This document shows, piece by piece, positions 1 to 5,802 of a stretch of DNA of 5,802 nucleotides. The stretch is taken from NCBI GenBank assembly GCA_016932955.1, contig JAFGBV010000254.1, positions 1 to 5,802 of the forward strand. The letters run 5' to 3'. The notes under the pieces were generated by a model. It was not told the DNA's origin. It was given only the letters and a program-made list of their open reading frames with translations, and searched no databases. Numbering within the stretch: the stretch's first letter is position 1; the number at the start of each line of letters is the position of its first letter. The DNA comes from Anaerolineales bacterium (lineage in GTDB: Bacteria > Chloroflexota > Anaerolineae > Anaerolineales > UBA4823). A program made the translations under genes and the position numbers.

Positions 1-336
1 GCGCTGGTCGGGGTGGACGGCCACGTTGGCGATCAGATAACAGCGTCGCCCGCTGACCGTGATGGGGATCAGGCTGACATTGCCGATCAATCTCCCATCC
101 TCCTCCCAGACCAGGCCTGTTTGGGGAGTAGGTGTGTGGTCGGTGAGTGAATCGGTCCAGCCCATCAAGCGGGCGCTGCGGGCAGTCTCGCGCATTCCGC
201 GCAGGAAATGCCTGCCTTCCAGGTCGAGGGTATCTGAAAAACACAGCTCGACCAGGTCAGCCACTGTTTCCAGATCACGGCGCAGGCTGAGACGGCGGAT
301 GTGGCTATCAACGGCAGGGGGCAAAGCAATATCCAC
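1..336 (-). CDS. GNAT-family N-acetyltransferase, 3' end cut by the window edge
   Basis: An open leftward frame of 112 codons has no stop before the left edge. Translated from the GTG at 336, it begins VDIALPPAVDSHIRRLSLRR. The region near the edge reads GLVWEEDGRLIGNVSLIPI, then CYLIANVAVHPDQR. This is the beta-strand pair and the start of the acetyl-CoA-binding motif A of GNAT enzymes, in which 'NVAVHPDQR' is normally followed by GxG. The acetyl-CoA loop and the C-terminal half lie outside the window. GNAT enzymes move an acetyl group from acetyl-CoA to an amine; the substrate cannot be told here. The start is uncertain. A TTG at 342-340 sits 7 nt after an AAAGG and may be the true start. 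The GTG at 336 is further from it. An in-frame ATG at 399 lies upstream of the likely promoter and is less likely. The gene is divergent from the regulator gene to its right. Confidence 0.75.
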   Translation of the reverse strand, partial: MDIALPPAVDSHIRRLSLRRDLETVADLVELCFSDTLDLEGRHFLRGMRETARSARLMGWTDSLTDHTPTPQTGLVWEEDGRLIGNVSLIPITVSGRRCYLIANVAVHPDQR

Positions 337-362
337 GACCAAGAGCGCACCTTTCTTCTCAC

Positions 363-390
363 ATTTTACCCCATCCCTGAGAAATGTACA
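363..390 (-). promoter_or_regulatory. Candidate promoter of the GNAT gene
   Basis: Read leftward, TGTACA (390-385) lies 16 bp from TAAAAT (368-363). These match the sigma-70 consensus at 4/6 and 5/6 positions. Transcription would begin near 356, giving a very short leader that carries AAAGG (354-350) just before the TTG/GTG starts. This is a pattern match only. Confidence 0.45.
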
Positions 391-395
391 TTTCT
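380..395. repeat. Perfect 16-bp palindrome in the divergent intergenic region (candidate operator)
   Basis: AGAAATGTACATTTCT is its own reverse complement over all 16 bases, with no spacer. It lies between the divergent acetyltransferase and regulator genes. Its central TGTACA overlaps the candidate -35 elements of both. A dimeric DNA-binding protein bound here would block both promoters. OmpR-family regulators usually bind direct repeats, so the binder may not be the neighbouring response regulator. The palindrome is seen directly; the operator role is inferred. Confidence 0.55.
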
Positions 396-426
396 TCATA
401 AAACCTTTATATTATTTTGATATACT
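385..426 (+). promoter_or_regulatory. Candidate promoter(s) of the two-component/transporter operon
   Basis: Two readings are possible. In the first, TGTACA (385-390) and TATATT (408-413) are separated by 17 bp, which puts the start site near 420 with a leader of about 14 nt. In the second, TATACT (421-426) is preceded by TGA (418-420) as an extended -10. It ends 7 nt before the ATG at 434, which would give a leaderless mRNA. The only Shine-Dalgarno-like sequence, GAAAGG (427-432), is just 1 nt from the ATG, too close for normal use. This favours the leaderless reading or a weak initiation site. Confidence 0.45.
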
Positions 427-433
427 GAAAGGC

Positions 434-1132
434 ATGGATCGCACCATCCTGGTGATTGAGGACGACCGCAAGACGGTCGATTTGATCCGCCTGTACCTGG
501 AGCGGGACGAATACCGTGTGGTGGAAGCTTTTGATGGGCGGATGGGGCTGGAGATGGCGCGCCGGGTGCATCCTGATCTGGTCATTCTTGACCTGATGCT
601 GCCGCGCCTCGACGGATTGGAGGTCTGCCGGCTACTTCGCAATGAAACCAATACTCCGATCATCATGCTGACTGCACGTGCAACAGAAGATGACAAGCTG
701 ATCGGGTTGGATTTAGGCGCTGATGATTATGTTACCAAACCCTTCAGCCCGCGCGAGCTGATGGCGCGCGTGCGCGCCGTGCTGCGCCGGGCAACGGAGC
801 AAAGACGGCAAAAGGCGGATGCTTTCACGGCAGGTGACTTGCGTGTGGATTTTGTCCGGCAGAAGGTGACCCTGCAAGGTGAGACAATACATTTGACACG
901 GCGGGAATTTCGCTTGTTGGAAATCCTGACCAATGAGCCGGGGCGCGTATTCTCTCGCCTTGACTTGCTGGAGGATGCCTTTGGATTTGATTATGGCGGT
1001 CTGGAGCGCACGGTGGATGTGCATATCATGAACCTGCGCAAGAAGATCGAGCCAGACCCGGAACACCCACGCTATATCCAGACCATCTACGGCGCAGGCT
1101 ATTGTTTCGCAGAGGCCTCTCATGCTGCATAG
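434..1132 (+). CDS. OmpR/PhoB-family response regulator
   Basis: This is a 232-residue DNA-binding response regulator of typical family length. The receiver domain (about residues 3-118) has the acidic pair D10/D11 after ILVIE, phosphoacceptor D53 in VILDLMLP, T80 in IIMLTAR and K102 in YVTKPF. A short charged linker (119-130) leads to a winged-helix effector domain (about 131-226), with the recognition-helix region RTVDVHIMNLRKKI and the wing YIQTIYGAGYCF. Phosphorylation of D53 by the neighbouring kinase should promote dimerisation and DNA binding. The frame is open further upstream to an ATG at 59, but that extension lies over the opposite-strand acetyltransferase and the promoter region and has no domain match. 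The start at 434 gives the canonical N-terminus MDRTILVIEDD. The last 11 nt overlap the kinase gene. The target promoters are unknown; autoregulation from the upstream intergenic region is plausible. Confidence 0.96.
   Translation: MDRTILVIEDDRKTVDLIRLYLERDEYRVVEAFDGRMGLEMARRVHPDLVILDLMLPRLDGLEVCRLLRNETNTPIIMLTARATEDDKLIGLDLGADDYVTKPFSPRELMARVRAVLRRATEQRRQKADAFTAGDLRVDFVRQKVTLQGETIHLTRREFRLLEILTNEPGRVFSRLDLLEDAFGFDYGGLERTVDVHIMNLRKKIEPDPEHPRYIQTIYGAGYCFAEASHAA
1111..1115 (+). promoter_or_regulatory. Ribosome binding site of the histidine kinase gene
   Basis: AGAGG lies inside the end of the regulator gene, 6 nt before the ATG at 1122. It supports this start and implies translational coupling of regulator and kinase. 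Confidence 0.6.
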
Positions 1133-2549
1133 CCTGCGTTTTCGCCTGTTGCTTGCCCTGGTGGTAGTTATCGGGGCTGCTCTGGGCATCGTGGCGCTAT
1201 ATGCAAGCCGGGTGACGACCAGCCAGTTCGAGCGCTCTGTGGTGGGCATCCTGCGCTACCAGGACCCCCGGCTGGATGTTAAAATCACCAACATCCAAAA
1301 GACAATCACGCAGTTAACCGGCGAAAGCGATATTTGGCCTGCTTTGCAAGATCTGCTGGAGCAAATGGGTGCATCTTCGCACTCACGTTTTGTAATGTCA
1401 GACCTTGAAGGCAAGGTGTATGCCGATTCGAAGCAAGAATTGATCGGTCAGCGCTTAGATACCAAGCAATCCAAGCCCATTGCGGTGTACCTGATCGAAA
1501 AGATACCCATCCTGATGTACTTCGAGCCACTGGATGTGCCCAACCTCGAAACAATCCGCGGGGAGTTCAGTAATTCGGTCAACCGCAGCCTGCTGCTAGC
1601 GATCCTGGCAGCGGGTTGCCTGGCAGTACTGGTGACGCTGATACTATCACATAGCATCCTGCACCCGGTGGATGCCCTGACGCTGGCGGCACAGCGCATG
1701 GGTGCTGGCGACTTGAGCCAACGGGTGGAGATACAGTCCAAAGACGAGGTAGCTGAGCTGGCAAAAGCATTCAATGCCATGGCAGACAACCTGGAGAGGT
1801 TGGAGTTGCTGCGCCGGACGATGGTGACAGACGTGGCACACGAGCTGCGCACACCACTATCGAACGTGCGCGGCTACCTGGAGGCAATCCAGGATGGGAT
1901 GGTGCAACCGACCAAAGAGGTGATTGACTCGCTGTACGAGGAAGCCATGCTGTTGAGTCGTCTGGTGAACGACCTGCAAGAGCTGGCATTGGCAGAGGCG
2001 GGAAAATTGCATATGGAAGTCCAGGAAATTGATGTGCGCCAGATGGTGCTGAGGGCTGCCGGGTTGGCGCAACAGCCTGCCAACCAAAACAAGCTGAAGT
2101 TGCGCACTGAAGTGCCTGCCGAGCTGGTGCCAGCATTTGCCGACCCAGAGAGGTTGGGTCAAATCTTGCATAACCTGTTGGATAATGCGATCCAATACAC
2201 ACCAGAAGGCGGCGAGATTACTATAACAGCCCGTCGCCAGGAGAGATTTGTCGAGATCCAGGTGCAGGATACAGGCGGTGGAATTGCTGCTGAACACCTG
2301 CCTTATATCTTTGAACGCTTCTACCGCGTCGACCAATCACGCAGCCGGGCGACGGGAGGTGCAGGTTTGGGTTTGGCGATCGTTAAACAACTGGTGGAGG
2401 CGCAAGGTGGGCAGATCAGCGCTCGCAGCCAGCTTGGAAAGGGAACAACAATTTCCTTTAGCCTGCCAATTGCAGAAGTAAGCGAAAGTGCTCACGCAAC
2501 CAAAACCAGCAATCAAAAACAGCCCATCGACCAACATTCCATTCCATAA
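1122..2549 (+). CDS. Membrane sensor histidine kinase (HAMP, HisKA, HATPase_c)
   Basis: This 475-residue kinase is the likely partner of the upstream response regulator. Its order is: membrane helix 1 (about 8-28), an extracytoplasmic sensor region (about 30-154), membrane helix 2 (about 156-177), and HAMP (about 178-230, HPVDALTLAAQRMGAGDLSQRV). HisKA follows with phosphoacceptor H240 in DVAHELRTPLSNVRGYLEA. The ATPase domain has N351/N355 in LHNLLDNAIQYTPEGG, the G1 box DTGGGIA (383-389), the F box YIFERFYRVD (395-404) and the G2 box GGAGLGLAI (412-420). The sensor segment VMSDLEGKVYADS...IGQRL (91-112) resembles the core of Cache/PDC-type small-molecule sensors; that is my reading, not a search result. 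All catalytic residues are present. A polar tail of about 25 residues follows the ATPase domain. The gene overlaps the regulator gene by 11 nt and ends 9 nt before the permease gene, so it may sense the transported substrate or a related stress. Confidence 0.96.
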   Translation: MLHSLRFRLLLALVVVIGAALGIVALYASRVTTSQFERSVVGILRYQDPRLDVKITNIQKTITQLTGESDIWPALQDLLEQMGASSHSRFVMSDLEGKVYADSKQELIGQRLDTKQSKPIAVYLIEKIPILMYFEPLDVPNLETIRGEFSNSVNRSLLLAILAAGCLAVLVTLILSHSILHPVDALTLAAQRMGAGDLSQRVEIQSKDEVAELAKAFNAMADNLERLELLRRTMVTDVAHELRTPLSNVRGYLEAIQDGMVQPTKEVIDSLYEEAMLLSRLVNDLQELALAEAGKLHMEVQEIDVRQMVLRAAGLAQQPANQNKLKLRTEVPAELVPAFADPERLGQILHNLLDNAIQYTPEGGEITITARRQERFVEIQVQDTGGGIAAEHLPYIFERFYRVDQSRSRATGGAGLGLAIVKQLVEAQGGQISARSQLGKGTTISFSLPIAEVSESAHATKTSNQKQPIDQHSIP

Positions 2550-2558
2550 CTCAAGCCT

Positions 2559-3539
2559 ATGACCCGCTACATCTTACGACGCATCCTGATCATCCCCTTC
2601 GCCCTGATCCTGATCCATTTCCTGGCTTTTGCATATGCCACAGCGGCGCGGCCAATCCGCGCCGCTCGTACACCCTACCTGCGTGAACAAATCGAAAGCG
2701 TACCGTTGGGAGATGCATACCTGGAACATATTCAACAAGTACTGAGCGGGAACGTGAATGATGTTCCTGGGCCGTTGGGTGGACTGGGCGAGTCGGTTTG
2801 GGCCGCTACCAAAGCAAGCCTGGGATTGCTCCTGCCTGCCATGCTGGTCAGCACCTTGCTGGGGTTGCTGCTGGGCTTGCAGGCGGTGCGCACTCAGCCG
2901 GCAGGGGTGAAGCGCTGGCTGACGCCGATTGCCACCGTAGGCTTGGCGACGCCCAGCTTTTACCTGGGGTCCTTGGGAATCTTGGGGATTGTGTATTACA
3001 TGCTGTGGCGTGGTCCTGGGGCTGAAAGCCCGCTACCGATCAGCGGGTTTGGTTGGGATAAGCATCTAATCCTGCCGGTGGTGGTGCTCTCATTGCGCCC
3101 GGTGGTGCAGATCGCCCAGGTCATCGCCGGACTGATGTCTGGCGAGCTGCGCAAAGATTATGTGGTTGCTGAACGCAGCTTTGGATATAGCTGGCGGAAT
3201 ATCCGCTGGAAATATAGTCTGAAGAACATCCTGGCGCCGGTGTTGCTAACCATTGCCGGAACCTTCCGGCTAACGGTGGGCGAGCTGGTGGTGGTCGAAT
3301 GGCTGTATAGATGGCCCGGGTTGGGGTATTTGTTGGCCTCAGCGTTGGTGCCGGGCGAATTGAGCACCAATCTGGGGGCTACGCCGCTGTTCTTGAACCC
3401 GCCGTTGATCGCCGCCATCATTACGGTGATCTCAGCGTTGTTCCTGGTGGTAGATATGGCAGCATCGATTGCAGTACGGGTCATCGACCCGCGCTTGCGA
3501 CCGCACGATGATGCTTCGGCGTCAGGGGGCGGCCTATGA
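2559..3539 (+). CDS. ABC transporter permease, OppB/DppB type
   Basis: This 326-residue integral membrane subunit belongs to a peptide/nickel/oligosaccharide-type ABC importer. The first helix (about 5-28, in MTRYILRRILIIPFALILI) is the classic OppB N-terminus. The permease core begins near residue 77. Family marks are PLPISGFGWDKHLILPVVVLS (158-178; DppB proteins have PxSGYG...HLxLP), the cytoplasmic EAA loop (about 200-226, YVVAERSFGYSW then KNILAPVL), VVEWLYRWPGLGYLL (245-259) and the C-terminal VIDPRLRP (308-315). The EAA loop is somewhat degenerate (ERSFG in place of the usual ARAKG), but the region that docks the ATPase is present. Length is normal. The ATG lies 9 nt after the kinase stop with no good Shine-Dalgarno, suggesting coupling to kinase translation. 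The stop overlaps the next start (ATGA), so the two permeases should be made together and pair as a heterodimer. The substrate cannot be assigned. Confidence 0.95.
   Translation: MTRYILRRILIIPFALILIHFLAFAYATAARPIRAARTPYLREQIESVPLGDAYLEHIQQVLSGNVNDVPGPLGGLGESVWAATKASLGLLLPAMLVSTLLGLLLGLQAVRTQPAGVKRWLTPIATVGLATPSFYLGSLGILGIVYYMLWRGPGAESPLPISGFGWDKHLILPVVVLSLRPVVQIAQVIAGLMSGELRKDYVVAERSFGYSWRNIRWKYSLKNILAPVLLTIAGTFRLTVGELVVVEWLYRWPGLGYLLASALVPGELSTNLGATPLFLNPPLIAAIITVISALFLVVDMAASIAVRVIDPRLRPHDDASASGGGL
2642..2666 (+). other. GC-rich perfect stem-loop early in the permease gene
   Basis: The 10-bp arms AGCGGCGCGG (2642-2651) and CCGCGCCGCT (2657-2666) pair perfectly around a CCAAT loop. The hairpin begins 84 nt after the start of the permease ORF. 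No U-tract follows, so it is not an intrinsic terminator. It encodes AARPIRAAR, so it may simply reflect Ala/Arg codons. A role in mRNA processing or in tuning expression between the signalling and transport genes is possible but unproven. Confidence 0.4.
3524..3529 (+). promoter_or_regulatory. Ribosome binding site of the fusion permease gene
   Basis: AGGGGG sits 6 nt before the ATG at 3536, inside the end of the upstream permease gene. It fixes the start of the long fusion gene, whose ATGA overlaps the upstream stop. Confidence 0.65.
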
Positions 3540-5802
3540 GCGCCACGTTATTCGAGGAAGCCCGTGCAGCCATCCAAAGGGGTGAACGCATCCACGCCCG
3601 TAAACTTCTGCGCAGTTTGCTGATGACCGATCCGCGGAATGAACAGGCCTGGTTGCTGATGGCGCGGGTCGTCGATTCCCAGGAACAAGTGGTTGACTGC
3701 CTGGAGCGGGCATTGAAGATCAACCCACAGAATCTGGCGACAGCCCGGGCGCTGGAAGCGCTGCGCCACCCGCATCCAGTGCATGTACAGGCTCCTGCCG
3801 CGCCACTTCCACCGGTTGAGACCGTCCAGACACTCGCGGATAACCAGAAGCTGGTGGAACAGCAAGCGGTGATGAGGAGAGCCGAGCAGCCTACCCGGAC
3901 AGCTATGTCTGCAGACATAGCTCATCTGCCTGACAGGAGCACGACGGCACCACAAGCTGCCGCCCGAGCGAAGCCGGTGGAACGTCGAGCCAAATTGCAG
4001 CCCAAGCAGGAGGCCAAGATCCGCCCACCACGGCGCTATGTCAACTGGTCGTTGATGATTGGGGCAGTACTGGTATTCATCGTGGCTTTTCTCAGCGTGC
4101 TGGGACCCAAGCTGGCGACAGGCGACCCGCTTAAGGAAAACGTGATCATCAAGGTCGGCGATACCTGGGTCAAACCGCCTTTTACCCCTCTTGAAGTGCC
4201 TGGGTTCCCGCTTGGCTCAGACCAGTTTGGGCGTGACCTGTTCAGCCGTGTTTTATATGCTGTCCAGCCGACCATGATCATGGTGACGATTGTATCGCTC
4301 GTGCGCTTGTTCCTGGGGACAGTGATTGGCTTGGGAGCAGGCTGGTCGACGCGGCGCATCGGGCGCGTGTTGGACACGTTGATATCGATGGCGTTGTCGG
4401 TTCCAGTGTTCATGATCGCTCTGGGGGCAATTGCCATGCTGGGGGCAGTAGGTGGTAACCTGCTGGCATTGGCGGCGGCACTTAAGGCGCCGCAGAGCCT
4501 ATTGGAGATATTGAAGGATACCAGCGGTAGCACCTTCGACCAAATTCTGCCCTTTGTGGTCGGGCTGTCGATCAACGGCTGGGGAGAAACGGCGCGCATT
4601 GTGCGCGAGCAGACGCAAGCAGTACGCGGGCAGTTGTATGTTGAGGCCGCGCATGCTTTGGGTGCTTCCTCGGGACGCATCCTGAAGCAGCATGTCCTGC
4701 GGCAGATCATGTCGATGGTCTGGATGTTGTTTGCTTTCGAAATCAGCAGCACGCTCATGGTGACTGCAGGATTGGGCTTTTTGGGCTACTACATTGGCGG
4801 GGATGTGTGGATCGAGGTAGCAGACTTTGTTTCACGGCGGGTGAGCGGTACGCCTGAGCTTGGTCAGATGCTTGCGACCTCCTGGGCTTCTCTGACTGAG
4901 CCCTGGCCGATGGTGATGACCGGCTCGGTGATCTTCCTGGCAGTGTTGGGCTTTAACCTGCTGGGAGAGGGGCTGCGAGTCAGGCTGAATCCGGAGAACA
5001 TCAACCGCAACAGCTTGTTTGCGAGGGCGAAGCGGGCATACAGCGCCTGGACGGAGGAATACATTACTTATCCGCTGAGCAACTGGCTGCACTCCCACTG
5101 GCGATTGGCTGCGCTGGCAGGCGCATTTCTGGTAGCTGTGCTTATCGGCGGCTTATGGCTGAGGGTGAACTTGTTTGCGCCGGAAGGTGCAGATGGGCAG
5201 GTCCTTGCGGTGCCGGGGGGGCATCTATGGTCAGGCGAGCGCGGCGATCCATACGGAACACGACACACCGCAGAAGCGGGTCCGCAAGAGCCCTCTATTC
5301 TTTGGCAATACCAGGACGAGGTAGGCTTATCCGACAGCCTGGCGATCAGCAAAGATGGCATCGTCTATCTAGGTTCGGAGCAGAAAAAGCTGCTGGCATT
5401 GAACCCGGATGGCAGTATCCTGTGGGAAGCCAGCCTTTCAGATGCTCCCCTGGGGGCACTCGCGTTGGGGGTAGATGGAGCAATCTATGTCACTGATGTC
5501 GCCGGTGGATTGACCGCCTTTAATGAGCAAGGCGAGCAACTCTGGCATTATACGCCCAGCGAGCGCGGCAAGCCGGTTCATGGAGCGATCACGGGTGAAG
5601 ATGGAGTGATATATTATCTGTTGGAAGACCCACAACGCGGGGATACACTTGTAGCATTGAATGAGGATAGCTCGCTGTACTGGAGCATAGCCACGGGAGC
5701 GAAAGTGGCGGACAGGGCGCTGCGCCTGAGCCCGGACGGTGAAGAAATCTACGTCAAAAACAAGGCGTTCAGCACCGAGACGGGTGAGCTGTTGACAAGA
5801 AA
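3536..5802 (+). CDS. Fusion protein: TPR-like module, OppC/DppC-type ABC permease, extra membrane helix, PQQ-like beta-propeller; 3' end cut by the window edge
   Basis: One frame stays open for 755 codons to the right edge. Residues 1-78 are helical and TPR-like (HARKLLRSLLMTDPRNEQAW; CLERALKINPQN). Residues 81-163 form a Pro/Ala/Gln/charged linker. Residues 171-482 are a full DppC-type permease: helix 1 (171-190), the family signature PLGSDQFGRDLFSRVLYA (225-242), helices near 247-270, 283-305 and 338-350, the EAA loop YVEAAHALGASSGRILKQH (368-386), GLGFLGYYIGG (412-422) and a last core helix with FNLLGEGLRVRLNP (473-486). A basic segment (484-502) precedes an extra helix (about 523-542). 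From 545 on comes a propeller: an entry strand (DPYGTRHT, then PSILWQY) and repeats GIVYLGS...ALNPDGSILW, GAIYVTD...AFNEQGEQLW and GVIYYLL...ALNEDSSLYW, spaced 40-46 residues. The propeller is incomplete here. It pairs with the upstream permease as the second channel subunit. The domain joints show no frameshift. The roles of the TPR and propeller parts are unknown. Confidence 0.92.
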   Translation, partial: MSATLFEEARAAIQRGERIHARKLLRSLLMTDPRNEQAWLLMARVVDSQEQVVDCLERALKINPQNLATARALEALRHPHPVHVQAPAAPLPPVETVQTLADNQKLVEQQAVMRRAEQPTRTAMSADIAHLPDRSTTAPQAAARAKPVERRAKLQPKQEAKIRPPRRYVNWSLMIGAVLVFIVAFLSVLGPKLATGDPLKENVIIKVGDTWVKPPFTPLEVPGFPLGSDQFGRDLFSRVLYAVQPTMIMVTIVSLVRLFLGTVIGLGAGWSTRRIGRVLDTLISMALSVPVFMIALGAIAMLGAVGGNLLALAAALKAPQSLLEILKDTSGSTFDQILPFVVGLSINGWGETARIVREQTQAVRGQLYVEAAHALGASSGRILKQHVLRQIMSMVWMLFAFEISSTLMVTAGLGFLGYYIGGDVWIEVADFVSRRVSGTPELGQMLATSWASLTEPWPMVMTGSVIFLAVLGFNLLGEGLRVRLNPENINRNSLFARAKRAYSAWTEEYITYPLSNWLHSHWRLAALAGAFLVAVLIGGLWLRVNLFAPEGADGQVLAVPGGHLWSGERGDPYGTRHTAEAGPQEPSILWQYQDEVGLSDSLAISKDGIVYLGSEQKKLLALNPDGSILWEASLSDAPLGALALGVDGAIYVTDVAGGLTAFNEQGEQLWHYTPSERGKPVHGAITGEDGVIYYLLEDPQRGDTLVALNEDSSLYWSIATGAKVADRALRLSPDGEEIYVKNKAFSTETGELLTR
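3901..3922. repeat. Perfect 22-bp palindrome inside the linker coding region
   Basis: The left arm AGCTATGTCTG (3901-3911) is followed at once by its exact reverse complement CAGACATAGCT (3912-3922). An 11-bp perfect inverted repeat with no spacer is not expected by chance in a window of this size. It encodes part of the weakly constrained linker (about residues 123-129), so protein sequence does not explain it. It may be a protein-binding site, a relic of a mobile or recombination site, or an mRNA hairpin. Confidence 0.6.

Follow-up and report, generated by a model that had tools for sequence, protein, structure and literature searches.

A DppC-type permease fused to a PQQ/BamB-like propeller in Chloroflexota: conservation, gene context and possible roles

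Does the gene that runs into the end of contig JAFGBV010000254.1, from Anaerolineales bacterium (Chloroflexota; assembly GCA_016932955.1), encode a genuine fusion of a DppC-type permease of an ATP-binding cassette (ABC) importer with a tetratricopeptide repeat (TPR)-like module and a beta-propeller, and, if so, what could such a protein do? We examined this gene in a window of 5,802 nt, by which we mean the whole stretch of DNA that was analysed. The fusion belongs to a family conserved in Chloroflexota and paired with a DppB-type permease, and in the stretches examined its genes generally lack linked genes for a substrate-binding protein (SBP) and for the ATPases OppD and OppF. We read it, with a probability of roughly 45%, as half of a Dpp-like permease pair that would work independently of an SBP, with the propeller as an outside recognition or docking module and with borrowed ATPases.

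Architecture and conservation of the fusion

The frame (3536–5800) stays open through 755 codons up to the contig end. In its product, Pfam recognised a TPR repeat (TPR_14, residues 8–44; 25.9 bits, cut-off 23.5), a permease domain (BPD_transp_1, residues 261–476; 4e-16, 59.7 bits, cut-off 26.4) and, at residues 588–675, PQQ_2 (2e-11), which together with the propeller fold identifies a PQQ/BamB-like propeller. The best NCBIfam equivalog, Opp2C, scored 114.9 bits against a cut-off of 300. The structural model of an 889-residue relative, P0024, matches E. coli DppC (8z1x_B) with TMt 0.81 and OppC (8z21_B) with TMt 0.84, and the structure that the propeller matches best is that of Rv3035 (VIA-align, with coverage mainly of the propeller, 491–878). 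The propeller of the window is incomplete, stopping at about residue 693 of P0024; since its closest relatives have two propellers, the complete protein is probably of about 1,300 amino acids (aa), with two of them.

A protein search returned 357 proteins, of which the best 120, the window's own included, were listed. The permease (PF00528) together with the propeller family was found in 116 of the other 119, the remaining three (P0025, P0085 and P0108) having PF00528 alone. The nearest among the matches listed, P0003 (78% over 71% of the query) and P0002 (67% over 96%), cross the junction between permease and propeller and then complete a first and a second propeller. The sizes of the listed homologues fall into two clusters, of 800–960 aa (74/119) and 1,050–1,330 aa (36/119), which correspond to one and two propellers. 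An alignment-based scan of genomes gave 40 GTDB loci, 36 of them with a propeller, and the record titles of all 36 name Chloroflexota groups (Anaerolineales, Caldilineales, Thermoflexales, Chloroflexaceae and Oscillochloris, among others). Within one class, at least 10 of 199 genomes contained the fusion, and across the phylum at least 2 of 201 (matches above 900 bits); both figures are lower bounds because three candidates were scored per genome. A single-sequence scan of genome contigs produced 31 stretches, none of which was confirmed. Matches in plasmid (2,701) and phage (38) records appear to be of the permease type only, because none in either set covers 80% of the query.

These results answer the first half of our question. 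An assembly chimera or a chance read-through could be suspected because the contig ends inside the fusion gene, but homologues such as P0003 and P0002 run through the joint, which is kept in 116 of the 119 listed homologues and in 36 GTDB loci, and we therefore reject this explanation as virtually impossible. The original prediction had thus correctly described a continuous frame through TPR-like module, linker, DppC permease, extra helix and propeller; the same domain order turned up elsewhere, as it had proposed to look for, and the break near residues 490–545 that would have separated the two halves is absent from the homologues, which read straight across. Their database labels are purely automatic, e.g., permease protein or PQQ-binding-like beta-propeller repeat protein. 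Within two pairs of homologues (P0008/P0083 and P0009/P0081) the longest contigs are equal in size (15,548 and 89,522, respectively), suggesting two fusion genes per contig.

In a midpoint-rooted phylogeny of 78 permease domains, 49 propeller rows group together with a single plain permease (L037) among them (98/95), the 16 rows carrying an M28 peptidase domain make up a clade of their own (96/87), and a long branch sets off four ordinary DppC; support at the point bearing on a possible loss of the propeller in L037 is 81/82. A search with one of these sister chains returned 746 proteins, and all 120 listed (P0121–P0240) combine the permease with M28. Ten of them (P0150, P0159, P0207 and seven others) also contain an ABC_tran domain, in the order ATPase-DppB-DppC-M28 in both chains that were scanned. 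In these ten, LSGGQ and the H-loop His are missing throughout (0/10 each), whereas the catalytic Glu is present in 3/10 and Walker A in 4/10, one row being without the region; their ATPase domains thus look like pseudo-ATPases, joined in a single chain to permease and peptidase. Among the queries used, this nucleotide-binding domain is nearest to the LolD/MacB-like type. Five M28 or plain sister loci had no SBP match in 17–18 kb, and an ATPase match in one (L061). One M28 chain, P0153, starts with the TPR-like module, as does the window protein. The permease lineage thus seems to swap its outside modules. Two M28 fusions (L053:49-2496, minus strand, and L055:1432-3936, plus strand) have a separate adjoining DppB gene and no SBP match nearby.

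Other domains occur at the same end. In L004:10193-14194 a single chain comprises the DppC permease, a propeller and a full DUF885 domain; HEXXH was not found in this DUF885 part, which we therefore do not assign as a peptidase. P0117 (domain-scanned) and P0118 (from a precomputed domain list) join permease and propeller to DUF11-type repeats. The TPR-like module was matched in 100 of the 119 listed homologues, but among the 36 GTDB loci with a propeller only in L001 and L002. The same module opens two L,D-transpeptidases (YkuD) of the complete chromosome G001 (L064:467-1513 and, on the minus strand, L065:779-2257; confirmed by Pfam), as well as other proteins of the same genomes with a predicted single membrane helix (judged by eye), and may be a general adaptor of Chloroflexota.

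The partner permease and the missing transport genes

A DppB gene adjoins the fusion gene on the same strand in 34 of the 36 loci. Other recurrent neighbours are rare, the best being an amidohydrolase (10/36, by Pfam), and the unit conserved in these neighbourhoods consists of DppB and DppC-propeller alone. Four genomes served to compare all 21 ordinary DppC places with five propeller genes, using PF00496 for the SBP and PF08352 for the tail of OppD/OppF. Of the ordinary places, 19 have an SBP within 3 kb and 15 have PF08352 within 10 kb, the corresponding counts for the propeller genes being 0/5 and 0/5. In the chromosome G001, each of the two propeller genes is separated by some 200 kb or more from any PF00496 or PF08352, the distance to the nearest PF00496 exceeding 200 kb. 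Searching the 36 propeller loci by tblastn gave an SBP match in one and a strong OppD/OppF match in one, in both cases L019.

Any kind of ABC ATPase was matched in the flanks of seven of these loci (L004, L017, L019, L020, L021, L029 and L035). L020 has a LolD-like two-domain ATPase gene (L020:7250-8899) 84 bases upstream of DppB, with two FtsX genes beside it; a fragment 74% identical to this ATPase stands just upstream of DppB in L035 (L035:5884-6189), and in L029 an ABC_tran gene follows the fusion gene by 460 bases. Two ordinary SBP-DppBC operons of the genome G007 likewise have no ATPase in the 10–12 kb examined, which makes a sharing of ATPases plausible. A lone OppF-type ATPase gene was seen in G001 (L043:1576-2610), with no permease or SBP in the 5 kb examined.

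The partner DppB differs from ordinary ones in the region that, in the E. coli protein, forms a periplasmic scoop after the first transmembrane helix (TM1) and docks the SBP (PMC12136057). PGDP-like or LGLDxP-like motifs, markers chosen in this analysis and assigned to the scoop by position, occur in the loop region of 18 of 19 ordinary Chloroflexota DppB (20 loci tried, one yielding no DppB) and in the loop of 0/33 propeller partners; when the longer stretch examined in ordinary DppB is taken instead, one of the 33 (L025) matches, outside the loop. The loop likewise lacks the motifs in nine DppB of plain sisters and in two partners of M28 chains, and in an alignment of eight partner DppB with two ordinary ones there is a nine-residue gap at the loop region. 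Apart from the SBP and OppD/OppF matches of L019, the propeller loci examined display none of the features by which a complete DppABCDF-type importer was recognised here (linked SBP, linked OppD/OppF, motifs in the scoop region of DppB). The idea, offered in the original prediction, of a propeller docking the binding protein finds no support for an importer of the ordinary dipeptide kind, because no SBP gene is linked and the loop motifs are missing.

Possible roles of the permease-propeller pair

Several features fit a propeller outside the cell and a TPR-like module in the cytoplasm, an arrangement that we infer from the extra helix TM7, the distribution of charges, a Cys pair and the secreted-type domains (M28, DUF885 or DUF11) that relatives have at the same C-terminal end. 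Residues 1–171 contain 27 Lys and Arg versus 18 Asp and Glu and the stretch before TM7 six versus three, whereas the propeller part is acidic (14 versus 32); the two Cys of the propeller are jointly present in all 60 alignment rows with residues there. GlnPQ and OpuA (PMC11065425) are importers with substrate-binding domains fused to the permease. As in those systems, a receptor domain would be built covalently into the permease chain at its outer side, here by prediction; unlike them, the fused domain is a propeller and not a domain of the flytrap type, and no ATPase is fused. The original prediction of a built-in extracytoplasmic domain of a different kind from theirs agrees with these data.

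Conservation in the fusion protein is highest in the permease core. The EAA coupling loop of the permease is well kept in the aligned rows (E370 97%, A372 94%, G376 100%, H386 100%, Q390 100%), which argues for a living contact with an ATPase. In the reading that we favour, DppB and DppC would make the membrane channel. In place of the SBP, the C-terminal propeller or propellers, held outside by TM7, would serve for recognition or docking, with the TPR-like module remaining cytoplasmic. Power would most likely be supplied by ATPase subunits whose genes lie elsewhere and which ordinary peptide importers also use. The resemblance to E. coli DppC and OppC (DppABCDF, OppABCDF; PDB 8z1v, 8z21) lies in the fold, the EAA loop and the tandem DppB; unlike these, the fusion protein adds a seventh helix, the propeller and the N-terminal module, and its loci are without linked SBP or ATPase genes and its DppB without the loop motifs. 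With the DppC-M28 chains it shares a related permease, a C-terminal domain other than an SBP, an adjoining DppB without the motifs (2/2 M28 loci) and, in some, the TPR-like start, whereas those chains have a peptidase, form a separate clade and, in ten of the 120 listed, contain a fused, degraded ATPase. The propellers of Rv3035/MMAR_1667, YxaL and BamB are separate secreted or lipoprotein chains with no permease joined.

Several observations weigh against this reading. Since DppBCDF of E. coli shows no activity unless its SBP is present (PMC12136057), the propeller would have to take on a task that propellers are not known to perform. The weight of the missing ATPase genes is limited by the 6/21 ordinary DppC places that also lack a nearby PF08352, and only 16 of the 36 propeller loci have 4 kb on both sides. 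In L019, OppD, OppF and an SBP are located 5–7.5 kb downstream of the fusion gene, from which HNH and argininosuccinate lyase genes separate them. The coupling loop of the partner DppB deviates from the ordinary consensus, and the ratio of coupling-loop to core conservation in DppC falls a little short of that in ordinary DppC (0.89 vs 1.00), a measure that parts the groups weakly and is uncorrected for sequence kinship. Finally, the degraded ATPase domains of the sister chains speak for a different role, that of a scaffold.

As such a repurposed scaffold, the DppB-DppC pair would import nothing and would anchor propellers or peptidases at the surface, linked to the cytoplasm by the TPR-like module, for envelope assembly, the processing of surface proteins or signalling with the neighbouring two-component system. 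This is a possible explanation that we nevertheless doubt. It would account for the lack of linked SBP or OppD/OppF genes and for the degraded motifs of all ten ABC_tran-M28 chains, and is consistent with the TPR-like start of the two L,D-transpeptidases and with the regulator and kinase genes directly upstream of the permease pair in the window and in L001. The closest propeller match points the same way, as Rv3035, together with the orphan SBP-like FecB, serves the arabinosyltransferase AftB in arabinan synthesis, and not transport (PMC12802301). However, a plain anchor would need neither a highly conserved EAA loop nor a permease core that is the most conserved part of the protein, and the degraded ATPases are those of the sister family, not of the propeller family. 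A broader version, which we regard as rather unlikely, is that a lineage of peptide-type ABC permeases in Chloroflexota is a pseudo-transporter that has shed the SBP, and perhaps also the ATP cycle, to become a membrane platform for envelope or surface-protein work; its interchangeable outside modules would be one or two propellers, a propeller plus DUF885, a propeller plus DUF11 repeats, or M28, and the TPR-like module its cytoplasmic adaptor.

Two other explanations retain transport. The genes of a complete importer could simply be scattered, with an unlinked SBP and OppD/OppF, the propeller docking the SBP or tethering the complex to the wall. Several PF00496 proteins do exist in each of the 29 genomes searched (best matches listed), no SBP is near 2/21 of the ordinary DppC places either, and Rv3035 was solved with the SBP-like FecB; but the absence of the docking-loop motifs from all 33 partner DppB, and the fact that ordinary systems of the same genomes mostly have their SBP within 3 kb, make this improbable. 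Still far less probable is that a LolD/MacB-like ATPase drives the pair in place of OppD/OppF. ATPase genes do lie beside the pair in L020, L035 (a fragment) and L029, and the fused domain of the sister family is nearest to this type, but such neighbours are few, an ABC ATPase of any kind being matched in the flanks of 7/36 loci, and in L020 the two FtsX genes are more likely partners of the LolD-like ATPase.

We found no publication on permease-propeller fusions in the open-access literature, to which the search was limited. Permeases with fused substrate-binding domains were known already; new here is a propeller or a peptidase at the predicted outside end of a permease from which the SBP is gone. 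Type I importers are taught to need their binding protein for starting the ATP cycle. If the SBP-independent reading is true, a propeller or peptidase in place of the SBP reveals an alternative means of loading and activating such a channel; if instead the scaffold is, the family marks a route by which ABC parts turn into non-transporting envelope machinery.

Gene order and features of the window

The coordinates of the genes and of the parts of the fusion protein are collected in Table 1. The response regulator, histidine kinase, DppB and fusion genes meet at successive junctions (overlaps or gaps) of only 11, 9 and 4 bases, which suggests a single operon. The window also contains a partial GNAT gene on the opposite strand. 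A scan of positions 300–3600 for promoters and terminators gave no more sites than shuffled sequences.

Table 1. Genes of the window and segments of the fusion protein (pLDDT, predicted local distance difference test)
Feature	Residues	Positions	Strand	Basis or remark
OmpR-type response regulator		434..1132	+	Pfam; same neighbour in L001
Sensor histidine kinase (HAMP, HisKA, HATPase_c)		1122..2549	+	Pfam; same neighbour in L001
Partner permease, DppB-type		2559..3539	+	BPD_transp_1 5e-18; 4-base overlap with fusion gene
TM1-TM2 loop of DppB	29-86	2643..2816	+	Two motifs of SBP-docking region absent
Fusion gene, DppC-type permease plus propeller		3536..5802	+	755 codons, no stop before contig end
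TPR-like N-terminal module, predicted cytoplasmic	1-75	3536..3760	+	TPR_14; five helices at 5-78 in P0024 model
Variable basic linker	76-165	3761..4030	+	Lowest conservation of the protein; pLDDT <50 at 80-132 in P0024 model
DppC/OppC-type permease	166-490	4031..5005	+	BPD_transp_1; structural match of P0024 model
29-residue insertion between TM3 and TM4	308-336	4457..4543	+	Alignment
EAA coupling loop	361-392	4616..4711	+	Alignment conservation
Extra membrane helix TM7	524-542	5105..5161	+	Hydropathy peak 2.39; helix 462-485 in P0024 model
Beginning of first PQQ/BamB-like propeller	560-755	5213..5800	+	

In the 39-row alignment, the window protein shares the insertion between TM3 and TM4 with P0002, P0003 and P0005 only. 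The gene order GNAT (opposite strand), response regulator, histidine kinase, DppB and fusion gene is common to window positions 1–3539 and L001:5746-9984, yet another sequence is nearer to the window than L001 in the permease tree.

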